From: Akkermansia sp. | Lineage (GTDB): Bacteria > Verrucomicrobiota > Verrucomicrobiia > Verrucomicrobiales > Akkermansiaceae | Direction of reading: 5' to 3' | Assembly: GCA_024405415.1 (NCBI GenBank) | Contig: JAKSOV010000007.1 | Coordinates: 1 to 45,438 of the forward strand | Length of the DNA stretch: 45,438 nt | Shown here: positions 19,000 to 27,409 of the stretch, in pieces | Numbering within the stretch: position 1 is the first letter of the stretch | Layout of the letters: the number at the start of each line of letters is the position of its first letter | The notes under the pieces: generated by a model | Databases searched by the model: none | Told to the model about the DNA's origin: nothing | Seen by the model: the letters and a program-made list of their open reading frames with translations, nothing else | Position numbers and translations under genes: made by a program

Positions 19000-19343
19000 T
19001 TAGTGGCGCTTGCGACGGGCGCAGAGCGCGGCGAGGGCCAGCAGGCTCAGCGTAGCCGTAGCGGGCTCGGGGGCTACGTAGATTCTGTTGCCGTCCCACT
19101 GCAGGGAGTAGGCAGTGCCGTCGTTCAGCGTGACACCGTCCGCAGCAACGAACACGATGTTGCCCAGCGTGGCCGTCTCCACCGAGGTGAAGAGGTCGTA
19201 GTAGCCGTTGGTGGCAACAGCGTCCACCATGTCCTGCGTGAGCACCACGGTCACGGCCTCGGTCGAACCGATGGTGACAGAGCAGCCCATGGTCAGCGTG
19301 GCGTTGTCAGCGAAGGTGATGGTGCCGCCGTTCACCACGAGGT
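19000..19343 (-). repeat. Conserved 3' module shared with the right PEP-CTERM gene
   Basis: This stretch, coding for about the last 115 residues, is almost identical at DNA level to 27066-27409, with only scattered changes over about 340 bp; the identity is highest in the last 200 bp. Such similarity outside the variable middle suggests recent duplication or gene conversion. Confidence 0.85.
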
Positions 19344-21834
19344 TGGCGTTGATGACAGCGCCGTCTTCCTCTGCCGAGGTCGGAGCATTCACCGTCAGGC
19401 TGGTGATATTGAGCGTACCCTTGTGGTCGTTCACCGTGATGGTCGCATCAGCGCCCAGCGTCAGGCTGCCGATGGTGGCGGTCGTGCCCGTCACCGTCAG
19501 CGCGTGGTTGAGGTTCAGGGAACCAGCACCGGCCAAAGATGCCACGGAGGCATCACCGGAGAAGGTGGCGGCGGAGCCGCTGTTCACCGTGAGGGCCGTC
19601 GTGTCGGACAGGGCGGACTTGATGGTTGTTGTGGTGTTGGAGTTCACCGTCACGGAACCACCTTCAAAGGTGTAGGGACGCAGCACATTGCCCGTCACCT
19701 CCACATTGGTGTTCTTGAAGGTAAGCGCCGTATTATAGCCATCGCTGTTCGAGCCGATCTGTGCCACGCTGTCCGTGGATTTGATGGAGGACTCACCCGT
19801 ACCCTTGCTGATCACCATACCGTCAGCCGTCAGCTTGCCCGTACCGGTGAGGTCGATGTGAGAGCCGGAGTGGAACCAGATACCCTGATTCCCGGCTGTG
19901 CCCTGCACTTCCATGCTGCCGTTGCCGAGGGTCACCGTAGCGTTGTCGGCAAGGTCGAGGTAGGTCTTCACCGTGGCCTTGTTCCCTGTCTGGGTGTAGG
20001 TGCCACCGACAGCCAACTGGGCGTTGGTGGAGAGATTGCCCGCCACCGTCACCGCACCGTTGGCGGTCAGGACGCCGATGTTCGAAGTGCCACCTGTGAG
20101 GTTCAGCGTACCGCCGTTATTCACCGTCACATCACCATTGTTCTCAAGAGTGCTGGAGAAATAAACAGACTTCACATCAACAGCGGCACCGCTTTGTACC
20201 GTCATAGTGGAGCCCGTGTAGACGGCAATACCGGTACCATGATTGGTCAAGTCGTAAGAACCTGCTGCAAAAGTAAGCGTGCCGGTCTTGCCGGTGCCAC
20301 CGACAATGAAAGCAAACGTTGACGTGCCGTTGTCCGTTACACCGTTTTGCAGGGTCAGGCTTGCACCGTTATCAAGAGTCAGCTGGTTGTTGAGCGTGGC
20401 AGCATCAAGGATGACATTACCCTTGATTGTCTGATTACCCATCGTGACACCGGTCAGCGTGCCGCCGTTCACTTCGCCGCTGAGCGTCACAGCCTTGCCC
20501 GTGGCATTCAGCGTCACGTTCGTCAGCTTGTTGGAAATAGTAACAGCCTCTGCGCTGGTCACGGAAACAACCGCATCGGAGATATGGTCACCGGCGTATG
20601 CGGTGCCGCCGAGCTGCACCGTGCCGCCCTCCATGGAAGCGTTGGTGTTGCCGGAGAAAATCACCGTGCTGTTATCAGCGGTGTTGGAATAGGTGCCGGT
20701 CCAGGCCGTGGCATCAACAATGGTGATGTTTTGGTCAGCCTCAAAGGCCTTCACAAACTTGCCGTCACCCGCCAAAACGTTGAAGGTGTAGCTGTTCTTA
20801 CCTGTCTGGGGAGAGCCCGCAGCGGTCAGATGAAGGCCTTCACCCGTCAGCGTGATATTGCGCTGCGTACCGCCGAGCTTCACGCTGCCGTAGGCACCAT
20901 CCATCGTGATGGAGCCGTTGTTGGTGCCGGCATCGAGATTCTCAATGTTGACATTCTTAATGATGCCTGCATTCGCACCGTAATTGGCGTTGTACTTCAC
21001 GTTGGAGGTCACGCCATCCTCGGCCATCACACCTTCCAGCGTCACGGTGGCAGCCATATTGTTGCGCCCGAAAGCCCACTGCGTGCTACCCGTGTACTTC
21101 AGCGTACCCGTGCCCTGAATGGAACCGAGAGAAGACCGCTTGGAAGAATCGGCAAGAAGAATGGTGGAATTGTCGCCCAGCGTCAGCGTGTCGATGGTAA
21201 CATCCTTCTCAAAGCTGTAGGAACCGCCACCGAGAAGCTGTACTTTCGCCGTGCCGCCGTTCTTCTTGATGGCGTTCGTGATGTACACCGTACCGGCAGA
21301 AGCCGCATACTTGTAAACAAGGTCATTTTTATCGGAGGTGAAGGTGATGTCACCCGTGCCGGAAACACCGGCGGTTGCGGTAGAGTTCTGAGACGTCGCT
21401 GCGGTACCATCGTTCACCGCGCCGAAGCACAGGTAGAAGTTTGCGCTGGCACCCAGCGTGATGTTGCCCGTGTAGCCGGTCACATCGCCGGTAAAGGCAT
21501 GCTTCAGATTCGTGCCGTTGCCGGTCTTCTTGATTTCACCGTTACCGGTAATCGTGCCGGAGAAGGTCACCAGATTGCCCCAGCCGTTGTTGCCGATGAT
21601 ACCGCCCTGATTCTCAGAGCCGTCACCGACTTGGATGTTCTGGCTGAAAACGGAGTTTACGCCGTTACCGTAGAAATAACCGCTCGTCAGGTTCAGGATG
21701 AGATCCTTACCTGCATAGGCGGCATCATTCAGGTTGAGGTTGTCTTTGCCTCCGCTGATGGTCACCGTCTCGGCGAACGCGCTGCTGCACAGGGCAGCAC
21801 CGAGTATCGCGCTGAGGAATAGTGTCTTTTTCAT
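19000..21834 (-). CDS. Large secreted PEP-CTERM protein with beta-strand repeats (left copy)
   Basis: This 944-residue protein starts with a signal peptide (MKKTLFLSAILGAALCSSAFA). The body is a long run of Thr/Gly/Asn-rich strands (LTGTGKLTADG, GGTLNLTGG) like autotransporter-associated beta-helix passengers. It ends with a PEP-CTERM tail: APEPATATLSLLALAALCA then RRKRH. Such tails direct exosortase-dependent processing and surface or matrix anchoring; no exosortase gene is in the window. The signal peptide and last 115 residues are nearly identical to the right copy at 24341-27409, whereas the centres differ. The ATG at 21834 is chosen from the signal peptide; no Shine-Dalgarno is visible. 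Likely a surface or biofilm adhesin, by inference. Confidence 0.85.
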   Translation of the reverse strand: MKKTLFLSAILGAALCSSAFAETVTISGGKDNLNLNDAAYAGKDLILNLTSGYFYGNGVNSVFSQNIQVGDGSENQGGIIGNNGWGNLVTFSGTITGNGEIKKTGNGTNLKHAFTGDVTGYTGNITLGASANFYLCFGAVNDGTAATSQNSTATAGVSGTGDITFTSDKNDLVYKYAASAGTVYITNAIKKNGGTAKVQLLGGGSYSFEKDVTIDTLTLGDNSTILLADSSKRSSLGSIQGTGTLKYTGSTQWAFGRNNMAATVTLEGVMAEDGVTSNVKYNANYGANAGIIKNVNIENLDAGTNNGSITMDGAYGSVKLGGTQRNITLTGEGLHLTAAGSPQTGKNSYTFNVLAGDGKFVKAFEADQNITIVDATAWTGTYSNTADNSTVIFSGNTNASMEGGTVQLGGTAYAGDHISDAVVSVTSAEAVTISNKLTNVTLNATGKAVTLSGEVNGGTLTGVTMGNQTIKGNVILDAATLNNQLTLDNGASLTLQNGVTDNGTSTFAFIVGGTGKTGTLTFAAGSYDLTNHGTGIAVYTGSTMTVQSGAAVDVKSVYFSSTLENNGDVTVNNGGTLNLTGGTSNIGVLTANGAVTVAGNLSTNAQLAVGGTYTQTGNKATVKTYLDLADNATVTLGNGSMEVQGTAGNQGIWFHSGSHIDLTGTGKLTADGMVISKGTGESSIKSTDSVAQIGSNSDGYNTALTFKNTNVEVTGNVLRPYTFEGGSVTVNSNTTTTIKSALSDTTALTVNSGSAATFSGDASVASLAGAGSLNLNHALTVTGTTATIGSLTLGADATITVNDHKGTLNITSLTVNAPTSAEEDGAVINANLVVNGGTITFADNATLTMGCSVTIGSTEAVTVVLTQDMVDAVATNGYYDLFTSVETATLGNIVFVAADGVTLNDGTAYSLQWDGNRIYVAPEPATATLSLLALAALCARRKRH

Positions 21835-21953
21835 TTTATAATGATGTAATTTCTTGTATTTGAGCGGATTAGCGCGCACTCGTCTTCTCACGTGCTGAAG
21901 CGCAGGCACACGCGCATCCGCGAGGATTCTACAGCATTGTGAATGCTGTAGCA
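21774..21953 (-). repeat. 180-bp exact inverted copy of promoter, leader and signal-peptide block (left)
   Basis: Read on the minus strand this block appears identical to 24222-24401 over 180 bp; the next base on both sides differs. It covers most of the promoter, an operator-like palindrome (21929-21951), an 85-nt leader and the first 20 codons. The two copies are head to head, 2.3 kb apart. Confidence 0.9.
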
Positions 21954-21954
21954 G
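21926..21954 (-). promoter_or_regulatory. Promoter with palindromic operator for the left PEP-CTERM gene
   Basis: CTGCTA (21949-21954), a 17-bp spacer and TAGAAT (21926-21931) on the minus strand. The palindrome CTACAGCATT-CAC-AATGCTGTAG (21929-21951) fills the spacer. The -35 box differs from the right copy by its first base (C in place of T), so this promoter may be weaker. From 21955 to about 22158 I see no feature. Confidence 0.6.
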
Positions 21955-22158
21955 AGTAAATCGGCGTAAATAATTCATAATGCGCACGTTAGGTTGAATG
22001 CGCCTCTTTTTCGGCAACGAAGATGCTGCTGCACTCATTCGATGCTGACTCAACAGGCTTGCAAGATGCGTGTTATCAACATCTTGCGAACAAAACCCGA
22101 AAATCGGGAGTGTTGGTCCTGTTTTTCGGGAATGATAGTGCATTTTTGCAGATTTGCC

Positions 22159-22188
22159 TTGACAAGACGGCTCACGCGCCGCTATATT
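22159..22188 (+). promoter_or_regulatory. Promoter of the DUF4143 ATPase gene
   Basis: A consensus TTGACA (22159-22164), an 18-bp spacer and TATATT (22183-22188) lie 29 nt before the ATG at 22218, predicting a leader of about 20 nt. Confidence 0.6.
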
Positions 22189-22217
22189 GCCCCTGATAAA
22201 ACGTTTGCCCCCTCGCC

Positions 22218-23444
22218 ATGAACACCCCGCTCCCATACCTCTCTCGTACGATGAGCCGCAGCCTGTCGCGGTTGGCTGCTTTCTTTCCCTGCGTGTTGCT
22301 CACGGGGGCGCGACAGGTGGGCAAATCCACCCTGCTGAAGCACCTGCTCCCGGAAGGAACGCGCTACGTGACGCTGGATAACATAGAGCTGGCGGCAGAG
22401 GCTCAGGAGCGCCCGCTGGCTTTTTTGGAGCGCATGGGTTGCCCGCTCTGTATTGATGAGATTCAATACGCCCCGGCCCTCTTCCGCGCCATCAAGCAAA
22501 AGGTGGATGAGGAACGCCGCCCGGGCATGTATTGGCTCACGGGGTCTCAGCGGTTTCGCCTGATGAAGGGCGTTTCGGAAAGCCTTGCAGGCAGACTCGG
22601 CATCGCGGAGTTGTTTTCCCTCTCCCAAGGCGAAATCGCGGGGAATGGGGAATTCATCCCCCCCTTCCACCCCTGCACGGCGCGAGCAGAGAGCGCCCCC
22701 GTCTGTGACCGAGCTACGCTGTTCCGCCGCATCTTTCGCGGCGGCTACCCTGAGCTGATACAGCACCCCGAGATTGAGCCGGCTCTGTTTTTCCAATCCT
22801 ATGTGCAGAGCTATGTCGAGCGCGATGTGCAGGAGCTGTCGCAGGTGGGCAATAAAAGCGCCTTTATCAAGCTGATGCGCTCTGCCGCGATGCGCAGCGG
22901 GCAGCAGCTGGTATATAGCAATTTGGCCCGCGATGCGGATGTCTCCCCCAAGACGGCGAAAGCGTGGGTTTCCGTGTTGGAGGCCTCGGGCATCATCACG
23001 CTGCTGGAGCCGTACTACATCAACACGACCAAACGCCTCACCAAGGCACCTAAGCTGTATTTTATGGACACGGGCCTTTGCTGTTGGCTGGCGCGCATCC
23101 GCTCGGCGGAGGAGCTGGAGCACGGAGCCTTTGCCGGGGCTATGGTGGAAACATGGGCCTTCGGGCAGCTCATGCGCCGCTTTCACAACACGGGGGAGGC
23201 GCCCCGTCTCTGCTACTATCGGGATGCCAACGGGGCGGAAGTGGATTTTCTGTTGGAGGACGGGGACACTCTGTACCCCATGGAGGTCAAGAGCAGTGAC
23301 AGCCCGCACCTCAACGATCTGAAGGGCTGTCGGGCCATCCCGCTCGGCAAATCCAAGCTTGGCGGCGGACTCGTCCTGTGCACGGCTGAGCATATCTCCG
23401 ACCTCGGCTACGGGCACCGCTCATTCCCCATCTCGGCGCTCTGA
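22218..23444 (+). CDS. AAA ATPase with DUF4143 C-terminal domain
   Basis: The 408-residue protein has Walker A in GARQVGKST (30-38), Walker B in CIDEIQY and sensor-like TGSQRF, all as in the AAA_14/DUF4143 family. The C-terminal half contains YFMDTGL and a PD-(D/E)XK-like core (EVDFLLEDGDTLYPMEVKS). These ATPases are common, often in many copies per genome; their role is not established and both transport-like and defence roles have been suggested. It sits alone between the two divergent PEP-CTERM genes, with its own promoter and a repeat cluster after it. An involvement in those genes is only suggested by position. Confidence 0.85.
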   Translation: MNTPLPYLSRTMSRSLSRLAAFFPCVLLTGARQVGKSTLLKHLLPEGTRYVTLDNIELAAEAQERPLAFLERMGCPLCIDEIQYAPALFRAIKQKVDEERRPGMYWLTGSQRFRLMKGVSESLAGRLGIAELFSLSQGEIAGNGEFIPPFHPCTARAESAPVCDRATLFRRIFRGGYPELIQHPEIEPALFFQSYVQSYVERDVQELSQVGNKSAFIKLMRSAAMRSGQQLVYSNLARDADVSPKTAKAWVSVLEASGIITLLEPYYINTTKRLTKAPKLYFMDTGLCCWLARIRSAEELEHGAFAGAMVETWAFGQLMRRFHNTGEAPRLCYYRDANGAEVDFLLEDGDTLYPMEVKSSDSPHLNDLKGCRAIPLGKSKLGGGLVLCTAEHISDLGYGHRSFPISAL

Positions 23445-24220
23445 GTCCGCAGCGGACCTGTGGCGTGGCCAAGGGGCTGTTTGTTTCTCATGCGTGAGAG
23501 GCAAATGAGGATTTGTCGGGGTCTTGCGCGGCAAGGCCGCGCAAGTATGGGATGCGCCCTAAAGGAGCATCCATGGTCGAGCCTTTAGGCGATAAGAATT
23601 TTAGCCCAAGGCGTAAGCCTTGGGGATAACCCCGGTGATTTTATCCTGTTCATAACCCCGCCGGATGGCGGGGTGGTTGCAGGGCATCGGTGGAACCAAT
23701 CTTGTAGCTTATCCCTCCGGCCGTTTTAATATCAACCGTTGACGCTCCGTCTCCGCTAAGGCTTAGCCGAGACAGGGGCGCGCGGGAGACGTACAAGGAT
23801 GAAGCACCCCGAACCTTGGCACCACCCTGCCATTCGGCAGGGTTATGGAGAGTATAACGCCACCCGCCTTAATCCCAACACTCACGTGTTGGGCTAAAAT
23901 TCTTATCGCCTAAAGGCTCAACGAAGCATGCGCCTAAGAGGCGCATGCCATTAGGCGCGCCTTCGCCGCGCAGGCCCTCGACAAAGGGAATTTGTCGAGC
24001 CTCCGCTTGTGCCTTCATCTATGCATTTATAGCCACTTCCTGAAAATCAGGAGCAACGCTCCCGATTTTTAGCCACGCACCCTGCGCCGTTGGTGCCGAT
24101 TTTCCGCCCTTGTCGGCCCGTTTTCCGCGCCGTTGCAAGGGTTATGCGCTTGTTTGTTTGAAAATTTCACAAAAAATCTCTCTAACTGCATATTTTTTCA
24201 ACGTTTTATGAAGATTCGGC
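23445..24220. repeat. Cluster of palindromic (REP/BIME-like) repeats
   Basis: This 776-bp gap has no plausible gene. It contains many hairpins: TGCGCGGC/GCCGCGCA near 23525-23543, AACCCCGCC/GGCGGGGT near 23656-23674, GCATGCGCC/GGCGCATGC (23926-23948) and CTCGACAAA/TTTGTCGAG (23977-23999). Near 23511 it starts with CAAATGAGGATTTGTCGGG, close to the outer end of elements B-D. At about 23745-23775 it carries a copy of the TGTC(A/T)CGGC-type repeat found in elements B and E. About 24000-24220 holds only short A/T-rich sequence before the right PEP-CTERM promoter. Confidence 0.8.
23579..23919. repeat. Element bounded by perfect 31-bp inverted repeats
   Basis: The left arm 23579-23609 (starting GAGCCTTTAGGCGATAAG) is an exact inverted copy of 23889-23919. 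The 279-bp interior has further palindromes and no open frame. The structure fits a paired REP unit or a small non-autonomous transposable element; no transposase is present in the window. Confidence 0.85.
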
Positions 24221-24249
24221 TTGCTACAGCATTCACAATGCTGTAGAAT
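24221..24249 (+). promoter_or_regulatory. Promoter with palindromic operator for the right PEP-CTERM gene
   Basis: TTGCTA (24221-24226), a 17-bp spacer and TAGAAT (24244-24249). A near-perfect operator shape, CTACAGCATT-CAC-AATGCTGTAG (24224-24246), fills the space between the boxes, so a dimeric regulator bound there would block polymerase. Transcription should start near 24256, leaving an 85-nt leader. Confidence 0.65.
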
Positions 24250-24401
24250 CCTCGCGGATGCGCGTGTGCCTGCGCTTCAGCACGTGAGAAGACGAGTGCG
24301 CGCTAATCCGCTCAAATACAAGAAATTACATCATTATAAAATGAAAAAGACACTATTCCTCAGCGCGATACTCGGTGCTGCCCTGTGCAGCAGCGCGTTC
24401 G
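24222..24401 (+). repeat. 180-bp exact inverted copy of promoter, leader and signal-peptide block (right)
   Basis: This is the partner of the inverted copy at 21774-21953. Identity ends one base inside the -35 box on the left and just after the signal-peptide codons on the right, so the duplicated unit is control region plus export signal. Confidence 0.9.
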
Positions 24402-27400
24402 GCGCGAGTTTGACCACGGATACGTCCGTGATTAACGGGGTCACCTACAACGGTGGTGTGTTCACCATCGCTCAAGCGACCGATAACTTCAGTTCCGTCG
24501 GCAAATCCGCTGATGTGACCAGCACGAACGGTACGATTACTCAGGGCTCCTCCATCAGTTGGCACGCCTTTGCCAGCAATCAGGACATGGATTACGGTCA
24601 CACCGTTCACCTGACGAAAGCCGGGCTCCACAAGTCGGATTTCGGTCCTTTCACCATCGGTGGTTTGATTGTGGACGCTCAGGATTCCCTTGTGCAGCTG
24701 GGACGTATCGATGGCAATACCGTTTTGGAGATTAACGGTGCCCACGATGTCAACATGGACATCAAGGCTGACACCGAGCTTCTTGGTAAGAACGACGTCA
24801 TGGTTTACCAGGGTGGCACTTGGAATGTGGCCTCCGGCAAGACGCTGACGCTGAAAACGGACGGCTCTCATTCTATCACGATTGATGATGTCAGCATCAC
24901 CAACAACGGCGGCGGCACCATTAAGCTGGATACGACGGCCGTCAATGTCAAGATCAGTGAGACAGCAAAGACAGAGGGTAACGGCTTCGGTGCCGTCGTG
25001 ATCAACCGCCAGATTGCCACCGGCACGGTGGATGCAAGCACGGTGACGACGTGGAAGGTCAACGGTACGACCGACGAGAGCCTGAGCTACAACAGCGAGA
25101 CCAACACGCTGACGGGTGACTCCCGCACCACGACCAACTACTACATCAACGATGCTTCTGCGGACTGGAGCCTGACGGGTGCCACCACGGCCACGGTGAA
25201 TATTGAGGGTGAAATGGGCATCAGCAATAACACCTACACGCTGAACACCCTGACCATCAACGGCGGTACCGTGAAGAGCAATCGCAGCAACGGCACGGGT
25301 ATCATCACGGGTGACATTGTCATCAACGGCGGCGGTAAGCTCTCCATTGTGCAGGGCGGCAAGGATGCGTTCGGCTATAATGGCAACGCCACCAAGTCGA
25401 TCACCCTGACGGGTACGGATGCCGACCACAAGGCGGTGCTGGACCTCTCCTTCAACGAGGACGGCGGCACCACGACGATGAGCGCCAATATCGTGATGAA
25501 CGGCTTTGCCGAGATTTCCGGCAACCGCGGTTTCAACACCTTCTATTATGACGCCACGCGCGCCGGCTCCATCACCGTCAACGGTACGAACAATGTCATC
25601 AGCTCCGAGCTTTCGATTCGCAAGGCCTCGACTCTGACGGTGAAGGAAGGCGGCGAGCTGCTTATCAGCGGTAAGGTCTCCCGCTTCGGCGGCTTTGATG
25701 GTGCGCTGACCAAGACGGGTGCCGGCACCCTGACCATCACGGGTAACATCACGGGCGGTTCCATCATCGGCGACGGTGCCAAGACCATCATCAAGGACAA
25801 CACCATCTCGGGCGGTACCTTCCAGAATGTCACCTTCACCAACGCCAAGGTGAACGGCACCATCACCCTGAACAATGTGACGGGCGACGGCAAGCTGCAG
25901 GCGGCTCTCGGCGGCCTGTCGAAGTCTGACGCTCAGGGTGCTACCGGCACCATCAATCTGGGCGGCGGTGAGTACACCTTCAACGCCGACTCGACGGCGA
26001 ACGGTCTCAACTTGGTGTTCAGCGCCAACACGGAGATTAACGGCCACGGCTACGACAGTGATGGTCACATCATCACGCTGAGCAATGGTGCTTCCGTCAA
26101 CACGGGCGCCCATGAGCTGAAGATTGAATCCGAAGCGACGCTGAAGGTTACCAACGGTGCCGTTACATCCGGTACGATTATTCTCGGTCACAACCAGACG
26201 TCGAACCCCGGTTTCCTGTCCATGACCGGCGGCAGCATCACGACCGGCTTTATCAAGAGCAACGCCGGCTATGCTGCTTCGGAGAACACCTTCACGATGG
26301 CGGGTGGTACGCTCACCTTCACGAAGCCCGCTTCTGAAGGCGACACAGCTTACAACGCTATCGACGGTGTGACCGCCACCATCACGGGCGGTACGCTGAG
26401 TACGGCGCAGGCGGCTTGGAAGATTGACAACGAGAACGTCACCCTGAGCGGCGTGACCATCAGCGGTGCCAACGCCGCTACGCTCTCCCATGTGAAGCTC
26501 GGCGACACCACCACGAAGATTCACACCGATACCACCGTTACCGGCGGCATCACGAGCGTTGGATATCGAAACGGCCAGTACGCTTTCCTTGTGGAAAACA
26601 ATCATACACTGACCTTCACGGATGCTGACTACGACTTGAGCAATTCCAGCGCCGGCATCGGCGTCACCGCGGGTTCCAAGGTGGTTGTGGAGTCCGACGC
26701 CTCCCTGACGGTCAAGACCTTCGTCGCCTCCTCGACAAACGTGGCCGGCAACGGTAATCTGACGGTGAAGGACGGCGGTAGCGTGAATGTGCAGGGCGGT
26801 GGTTTCCGCGATGCTTACCTCAACGATATCGTTCTGGATGGCAGCCTGACCGTGGCTAACGGCGCAACCCTCACCACGAACGCGTTGACGGGCGGTGCGG
26901 CTTCCTCCCTCGCCGTTAATGGCACGGTGAATGTCGGCGGCACGGCCCCCGTCACGGTGGGATGCCTGACGCTGGGCTCTAATGCGACCATCACGGTGCA
27001 AAACCACAACGGCTCGCTGACGACCACGGACCTGACGGTGAACGGCACCTCCGAGGTCAACGCCAACCTCGTGGTGAACGGCGGCACCATCACCTTCGCC
27101 GACAACACCACCCTGACCATGGGCTGCTCTGTCACCATCGGCTCGACCGATGCCGTGACCGTAGTGCTCACGCAGGACATGGTGGACGCTGTTGCCACCA
27201 ACGGCTACTACGACCTCTTCACCTCGGTGGAGACGGCCACGCTGGGCAACATCGTGTTCGTTGCTGCGGACGGTGTCACGCTGAACGACGGCACTGCCTA
27301 CTCCCTGCAGTGGGACGGCAGCAGAATCTACGTGGCCCCCGAGCCCGCTACGGCTACGCTGAGCCTGCTGGCCTTCGCCGCGCTCTGCGCCCGTCGCAAG

Positions 27401-27409
27401 CGCCACTAA
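24341..27409 (+). CDS. Large secreted PEP-CTERM protein with beta-strand repeats (right copy)
   Basis: The 1022-residue protein has the same signal peptide as the left copy, a different Thr/Gly/Asn-rich body of beta-strand repeats (LTKTGAGTLTITGNITGG, NGGTVKSN), and the same C-terminal module ending APEPATATLSLLAFAALCA then RRKRH. LTKTGAGTLTITG is typical of autotransporter-associated beta-strand repeats. It is presumably exported by Sec and processed by an exosortase encoded elsewhere. The ATG at 24341 is fixed by the signal peptide. It lies head to head with its paralogue and has the better -35 box, so it may be the more strongly expressed one. Function as a surface structural protein or adhesin is inferred. 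Confidence 0.85.
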   Translation: MKKTLFLSAILGAALCSSAFGASLTTDTSVINGVTYNGGVFTIAQATDNFSSVGKSADVTSTNGTITQGSSISWHAFASNQDMDYGHTVHLTKAGLHKSDFGPFTIGGLIVDAQDSLVQLGRIDGNTVLEINGAHDVNMDIKADTELLGKNDVMVYQGGTWNVASGKTLTLKTDGSHSITIDDVSITNNGGGTIKLDTTAVNVKISETAKTEGNGFGAVVINRQIATGTVDASTVTTWKVNGTTDESLSYNSETNTLTGDSRTTTNYYINDASADWSLTGATTATVNIEGEMGISNNTYTLNTLTINGGTVKSNRSNGTGIITGDIVINGGGKLSIVQGGKDAFGYNGNATKSITLTGTDADHKAVLDLSFNEDGGTTTMSANIVMNGFAEISGNRGFNTFYYDATRAGSITVNGTNNVISSELSIRKASTLTVKEGGELLISGKVSRFGGFDGALTKTGAGTLTITGNITGGSIIGDGAKTIIKDNTISGGTFQNVTFTNAKVNGTITLNNVTGDGKLQAALGGLSKSDAQGATGTINLGGGEYTFNADSTANGLNLVFSANTEINGHGYDSDGHIITLSNGASVNTGAHELKIESEATLKVTNGAVTSGTIILGHNQTSNPGFLSMTGGSITTGFIKSNAGYAASENTFTMAGGTLTFTKPASEGDTAYNAIDGVTATITGGTLSTAQAAWKIDNENVTLSGVTISGANAATLSHVKLGDTTTKIHTDTTVTGGITSVGYRNGQYAFLVENNHTLTFTDADYDLSNSSAGIGVTAGSKVVVESDASLTVKTFVASSTNVAGNGNLTVKDGGSVNVQGGGFRDAYLNDIVLDGSLTVANGATLTTNALTGGAASSLAVNGTVNVGGTAPVTVGCLTLGSNATITVQNHNGSLTTTDLTVNGTSEVNANLVVNGGTITFADNTTLTMGCSVTIGSTDAVTVVLTQDMVDAVATNGYYDLFTSVETATLGNIVFVAADGVTLNDGTAYSLQWDGSRIYVAPEPATATLSLLAFAALCARRKRH
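27066..27409 (+). repeat. Conserved 3' module shared with the left PEP-CTERM gene
   Basis: This is nearly identical to the inverted stretch 19000-19343. Together with the shared 180-bp 5' block it makes the two genes alike at both ends and different in the middle. Confidence 0.85.

Follow-up and report, generated by a model that had tools for sequence, protein, structure and literature searches.

A candidate Akkermansia-type inverton between two divergent PEP-CTERM surface-protein genes

Invertible promoters, or invertons, have been described in Akkermansia muciniphila, where the inverton repeat is quoted as CGGATT..AATCCG (Jiang et al. 2019, cited through PMC13343947), reads showed both orientations of one inverton (cps1), with a link to capsule state (PMC13343947), and the neighbourhood of invertons is enriched in PEP-CTERM genes (PMC11892184; inverton group 138). 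A related arrangement is the vpma locus of Mycoplasma agalactiae, in which inversion by the tyrosine recombinase Xer1 within near-identical 5′ regions links one promoter to alternative surface-protein genes (PMC2268961). Here we describe a locus on a 45,438-nt stretch of Akkermansia sp. DNA, referred to as the window, in which two PEP-CTERM genes, A and B, lie head to head around a DUF4143/AAA_14 ATPase gene and a hairpin region. Promoter flipping being already known in Akkermansia, this locus is, as read from its sequence, a variant with a diverged site. We consider it likely that the locus is an inverton of the Akkermansia type, serving as a promoter-flipping phase switch for the two divergent genes. 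In Bacteroides, too, capsule and surface loci have invertible promoters, with many short invertons per genome that are flipped in trans by global recombinases.

The genome that carries the locus (on contig C90) is a 1.98-Mb assembly of 122 contigs and 95% completeness, and it was compared with 76 Akkermansia genomes, one per species. The features of the locus are collected in Table 1, with coordinates given as positions in the window.

Table 1. Features of the A/B locus
Feature	Position	Strand	Composition and basis
PEP-CTERM surface protein A, 944 amino acids	19000–21834	−	Open reading frame, signal peptide, PEP-CTERM tail; inner flank CTCTGC without −35; predicted OFF as assembled
3′ block, copy A	19000–19352	−	353 nt, 97% identical to copy B
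Identical 180-bp 5′ block, copy A	21774–21953	−	3 nt, site, −10, leader, first 61 nt of coding sequence
Putative incomplete promoter of A	21926–21954	−	−10 TAGAAT 21931–21926; CTGCTA at the −35 position 21954–21949
Site A, TACAGCATT-GTG-AATGCTGTA (+ strand)	21930–21950		Site family with matched cores genus-wide
Predicted invertible segment	21951–24224		2274 bp; flanked by inverted sites whose cores match; −35 at a single end
AAA_14/DUF4143 ATPase	22218–23444	+	Pfam; promoter-like TTGACA-18-TATATT at 22159–22188 (consensus scan)
Imperfect inverted repeat and hairpins	23547–23951		Arms 23547–23684 and 23814–23951; sub-threshold Rfam hairpins
Putative split promoter of B	24221–24249	+	−35 TTGCTA 24221–24226; 17-bp spacer in site; −10 TAGAAT 24244–24249; consensus scan and one-sided −35 rule
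Identical 180-bp 5′ block, copy B	24222–24401	+	Same make-up as copy A
Site B, TACAGCATT-CAC-AATGCTGTA (+ strand)	24225–24245		Core is the reverse complement of the site A core
PEP-CTERM surface protein B, 1022 amino acids	24341–27409	+	Open reading frame, signal peptide, PEP-CTERM tail, TTGCTA-17-TAGAAT promoter; predicted ON as assembled
3′ block, copy B	27057–27409	+	353 nt, 97% identical to copy A

Paired sites, matched cores and a one-sided −35 element

The promoter region of each gene contains a perfect 21-bp palindrome, TACAGCATTNNNAATGCTGTA, for which 100 shuffles of the window gave no chance match. The pattern was found in 32 of the 76 genomes, in up to 20 copies each, and the reversed-pattern control was found in none. 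Contig records with the site belonged mostly to Akkermansia or Akkermansiaceae, many of them from animal guts, the other titles being scattered single matches at about chance level. Within the genome studied here, contigs C15, C56, C94 and C90 each carry two sites and C59 carries one with one mismatch; nearly all of them precede secreted genes, mostly of the PEP-CTERM kind. Across the genus the sites occur as inverted pairs, usually 123–258 bp apart. A comparison of the 67 distinct pairs with a spacing below 400 bp showed the central 3 nt to be identical in inverted register in 62, while shuffling of partners gave a mean of 3.2 matches and a maximum of 10 in 2000 trials, and no pair matched in direct register. 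This 3-nt core differs from locus to locus. Site-specific recombinases require identical overlap regions in their partner sites, which operators would not. Because the sites are paired and carry locus-specific matched cores, the palindrome fits a recombination site better than the operator for which the preliminary description of this DNA had taken it. A core of odd length always differs from its reverse complement and would alone give direction to an otherwise symmetric site; matching within a locus, it would also discourage exchange between loci.

The flanks of the sites add a second regularity. In 59 of 63 pairs, TTGC, TTGCC, TTGAC or TTGA stands just inside the site at exactly one end, and in the remaining four at both ends. 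With 31 one-ended pairs expected, this corresponds to P ~6e-14 (A/B locus included), a value to be taken as a guide only because the motif pattern was chosen after the ends had been viewed. The −35 element TTGCTA would consist of TTGC and the first two bases of the site, and the −10 element of the last two site bases plus four outer bases, giving TAGAAT at the A/B locus; the last −10 position, an outer base, is T at 75 of 126 ends. An independent consensus promoter scan matched TTGCTA-17-TAGAAT at B and gave no match at A, where the inner flank reads CTCTGC, so TTGC lies inside site B only and the promoter element faces one end. The recombination site would thus serve as the spacer between the two halves of a putative split promoter, of which the −35 would move and the −10 would stay.

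That such segments turn around is indicated by other loci of the genus. At two paralogous loci in one genome (G018), reversal of one interior is needed for the two to match, which they then do at 113 of 123 positions, whereas the outer leaders and gene starts match at 129 of 150 positions in the same orientation. Opposite interior orientations were also found between genomes (L164 versus L165). Opposite orientations are therefore known here from paralogous or related loci; at the A/B locus itself, inversion is what we would predict. Furthermore, two other genomes of the genus hold 44 and 74 copies of CGGATTNNNAATCCG, which is the published A. muciniphila inverton repeat, and in nearly all pairs inspected there the cores match and TTGAC adjoins one site on its inner side. 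As genomes with the published repeat show the same layout, the A/B sites would represent a diverged class of the known Akkermansia inverton system. They form a variant class and are not the published motif, because only the ATTNNNAAT centre is common to TACAGCATTNNNAATGCTGTA and CGGATT..AATCCG.

Together these findings point to the following mechanism. Two inverted 21-bp sites would lie within the promoters of A and B, each site providing the 17-bp spacer, with a −10 element TAGAAT fixed beside each gene; the movable segment would hold the sole good −35 (TTGC plus TA), adjoining the inner edge of one site. Inversion of this segment, by a tyrosine recombinase from the Akkermansia inverton family, would bring the −35 from B to A; recombination of the 180-bp repeats by RecA would have the same product. 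The outcome would be an either/or surface switch, with B on and A off as assembled and A on and B off after inversion. As both genes have the same 180 bp from the site onward, A would after inversion have a promoter, leader and signal peptide that match those of B base for base. An inversion of 21954–24221, already named in the preliminary description, thus points at what the sequence grammar predicts. Whether the complete design holds is, in our judgement, an even question: a half-promoter on the invertible segment, a spacer that is the recombination site, a 3-nt core acting as address code, an ATPase travelling inside, and paralogue ends kept identical so that either body could use the same promoter and leader, all in one two-way surface switch.

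Other site pairs deserve mention. The C15 pair, with a spacing of 258 bp, is likewise flanked by two PEP-CTERM genes in head-to-head layout and has one ON end. The C94 pair (L205, sites at 2681 and 2828) again separates head-to-head PEP-CTERM genes, with cores GCC versus TCA and a −35 at neither end, and is probably a decayed, locked inverton. Site spacings across the genus cluster at 142–147 and 152–158 bp, with none at 148–151 bp; the two clusters differ by roughly one turn of the helix, which may be due to helical phasing or simply to lineage. At L219 (G052:C28:33000-40000; sites at 2590, 2744, 4315 and 4467), two adjacent invertons about 1.6 kb apart have the same core, and the matching rule would allow exchange between them.

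Two PEP-CTERM genes with shared ends and diverged bodies

Both proteins are PEP-CTERM/exosortase surface proteins by their termini, with a signal peptide at the N-terminus and a C-terminus of PEP motif, hydrophobic stretch and basic end that reads PEPATATLSLLA(L/F)AALCARRKRH. The tail PEPATATLSLLALAALCARRKRH is clear in both, although their Pfam scores for PF07589 (18.6 and 16.1 bits for A and B) fall just under the cut-off of 20.7. The genome has one exosortase (PF09721, 151.9 bits, C91:1324-2067). A structure of B predicted without alignment input consists nearly entirely of short strands, at low confidence (mean predicted local distance difference test score, pLDDT, of 49).

The preliminary description had reported an identical 180-bp 5′ block, nearly identical 3′ ends (given as 340 bp), differing bodies, and a head-to-head layout around a DUF4143 ATPase and a palindrome cluster, and each of these observations was confirmed, the last by Pfam and the hairpins listed in Table 1. 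Aligned from the start codons, the 5′ block comprises 119 nt upstream of the ATG and 61 nt of coding sequence, and its upstream edge lies 3 nt past the inner edge of the palindrome. The 3′ block holds nine codon differences, five synonymous and four not, and has a fairly sharp edge; the 94 nt just before it are 78% identical. Between these ends the bodies are about 27% alike (21–31% identity per 60-column block), and their local score of 360, against 192 ± 19 for shuffled controls, indicates that they are distant relatives or have a common repeat style.

This layout had led to the proposal that A and B are antigenic-variation cassettes, in which homologous recombination or gene conversion swaps PEP-CTERM bodies between shared ends, and that additional copies, silent or active, exist elsewhere. 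The theme of surface variation stands, and the identical 5′ and near-identical 3′ blocks around diverged bodies, with their patchy identity, lend exchange of passengers some support. Likewise, the last 75 nt are 93% alike at the DNA level in two otherwise unrelated PEP-CTERM pairs, and genome G050, of another species, has a mosaic tandem PEP-CTERM array. The predicted further copies, however, did not appear: in the assembly searched, the full 180-bp block occurs only twice, a third place matching the palindrome only, and outside the locus the 3′ block found only matches of 38–86 nt of the PEP-CTERM end. With neither full end present in further copies in this 95%-complete assembly, a full cassette repertoire was not found in this genome. 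A search of the genus with the whole 180-bp block likewise matched almost only the palindrome outside the locus, and relatives of the A and B bodies were partial matches, mostly at the PEP-CTERM end. Cassette exchange would also not account for the pairing of the sites, the match of their cores or the presence of a −35 at one end only, and we regard it as an unlikely explanation of the locus. Since the palindrome is better explained as a recombination site, promoter inversion, and not passenger swapping, is the main mechanism that we predict. The shared gene ends would then be secondary, A and B being duplicated paralogues whose ends were kept alike by recombination while their bodies diverged. 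Homogenised ends with diverged bodies recur, and a slow exchange of bodies on top of the switch is plausible.

The G050 array itself (L212; G050:C13:32000-40000) comprises three tandem PEP-CTERM genes in the same direction, of 728, 719 and 719 amino acids, behind inverton-type sites; the last ~200 codons are 100% identical between two copies and the remainder is mosaic. Its sites lie at 2658, 5012, 5169, 7805 and 7962, and three of them have one common core, so whole-gene inversion would be possible there.

The segment between the sites and candidate recombinases

Relatives of the ATPase subfamily were found in 36 of the 76 genomes (loci L285–L314), with up to eight matches per genome, and are absent from the rest. 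At 29 other loci of such relatives no site pair was found around the gene, which rules out DUF4143 as a regular inverton passenger; the ATPase as passenger thus seems particular to the A/B locus. For the hairpins and the leader, Rfam gave sub-threshold matches only. Among these, two mirror-image hairpins, at 23597–23624 (−) and 23874–23901 (+), weakly resemble Acido-Lenti-1 RNA (28.6 and 28.7 bits versus a cut-off of 37).

Conceivably, the segment of a former inverton grew to 2.3 kb when the DUF4143 gene was inserted, and the switch has been locked since, with B on and A silent. The unusual spacing of the sites fits this idea, as do the ATPase relatives at loci without a site pair and the decayed appearance of the C94 pair, with its mismatched cores and missing −35, in the same genome. 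At the A/B locus, however, both sites are perfect, their cores match and a good −35 is kept at one end; moreover, tyrosine recombinases can join sites kilobases apart. We therefore doubt that the switch is locked. Finally, an ordinary repressor operator between −35 and −10, common to PEP-CTERM genes via co-regulation and recent duplication, would account for a perfect palindrome that overlaps a promoter and for its position before secreted genes, but it has no need of inverted pairs with locus-specific matching cores, a −35 at one end only or interiors in opposite orientations, observations for which we reject an operator-only role as very improbable.

Besides XerC/D-like proteins, the genome encodes about eleven further tyrosine recombinase matches that are related to each other. 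The recombinases on C53 and C54 adjoin ATTGGGAAT site pairs of the CAG(T/C)ATT kind, and the one on C13 adjoins a CATCATT pair; relatives in several genomes adjoin a CAGCATT pair. That related recombinases stand next to similar site pairs favours the inverton reading. No recombinase was seen at the A/B locus. Because nearly every genome of the genus has relatives of the C53-type recombinase, a correlation between its presence or absence and that of the sites is uninformative. The recombinase genes at L233/L207 (C13), L234 (C53) and L237 (C54) are themselves preceded by inverted site pairs of their own, CATCATT-GCG-AATGATG and ATT-GGG-AAT of the CAG(T/C)ATT kind, an arrangement suggestive of enzymes that invert their own promoters and whose specificities diverge.

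Strength of the proposed switch and comparison with known systems

Several points weigh against promoter inversion at this locus. The sites are spaced 2295 bp apart, about ten times the usual distance, and their matched core follows from the identity of the 180-bp blocks and so is not independent evidence. The predicted inversion is read from one assembly, and the orientation given by assembled short reads may be arbitrary. The promoter assignments are based on consensus, and the related tyrosine recombinases are no more than candidates for the acting enzyme. What the sequences show directly is the repeats, the site family, the matching of cores, the −35 at one end and the opposite orientations of paralogous loci; inversion of the A/B locus, its promoters, its recombinase and its expression states are inferred.

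If promoter inversion is nevertheless correct, invertons would follow a readable grammar across animal-gut Akkermansia, in which the site is the spacer, the −35 lies inside one end, the −10 lies outside and the cores match, and the ON and OFF states of surface-protein genes could be read from assemblies or reads. A new site class, CAGCATT, with its relatives CAGTATT and CATCATT, would stand beside the published CGGATT class, and these classes would point to a recombinase family with diverging specificities. The A/B locus itself would offer a concrete two-gene switch for studying surface variation in Akkermansia.

The closest counterparts are the invertons of A. muciniphila, which have PEP-CTERM genes among their targets; in the genomes with the A. 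muciniphila repeat, as here, the palindromic site has a ATTNNNAAT centre, the cores match within the pair and the −35 adjoins one site on the inner side (there TTGAC). The A/B locus differs from them in its site arms (TACAGC/GCTGTA versus CGG/CCG), its 2.3-kb segment with an ATPase gene aboard, and its two genes with identical leaders. It resembles vpma in having inversion sites, here predicted from sequence, in near-identical 5′ regions of surface-protein genes. In vpma, by contrast, several clustered genes share one whole promoter and the locus has its own dedicated recombinase, whereas the A/B locus has two genes, its predicted movable element is the −35 alone, and no recombinase was seen there. 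The invertible promoters of Bacteroides are comparable, by description, in that many short invertons per genome drive surface genes, and are set apart, again by description, by other sites and another promoter type.

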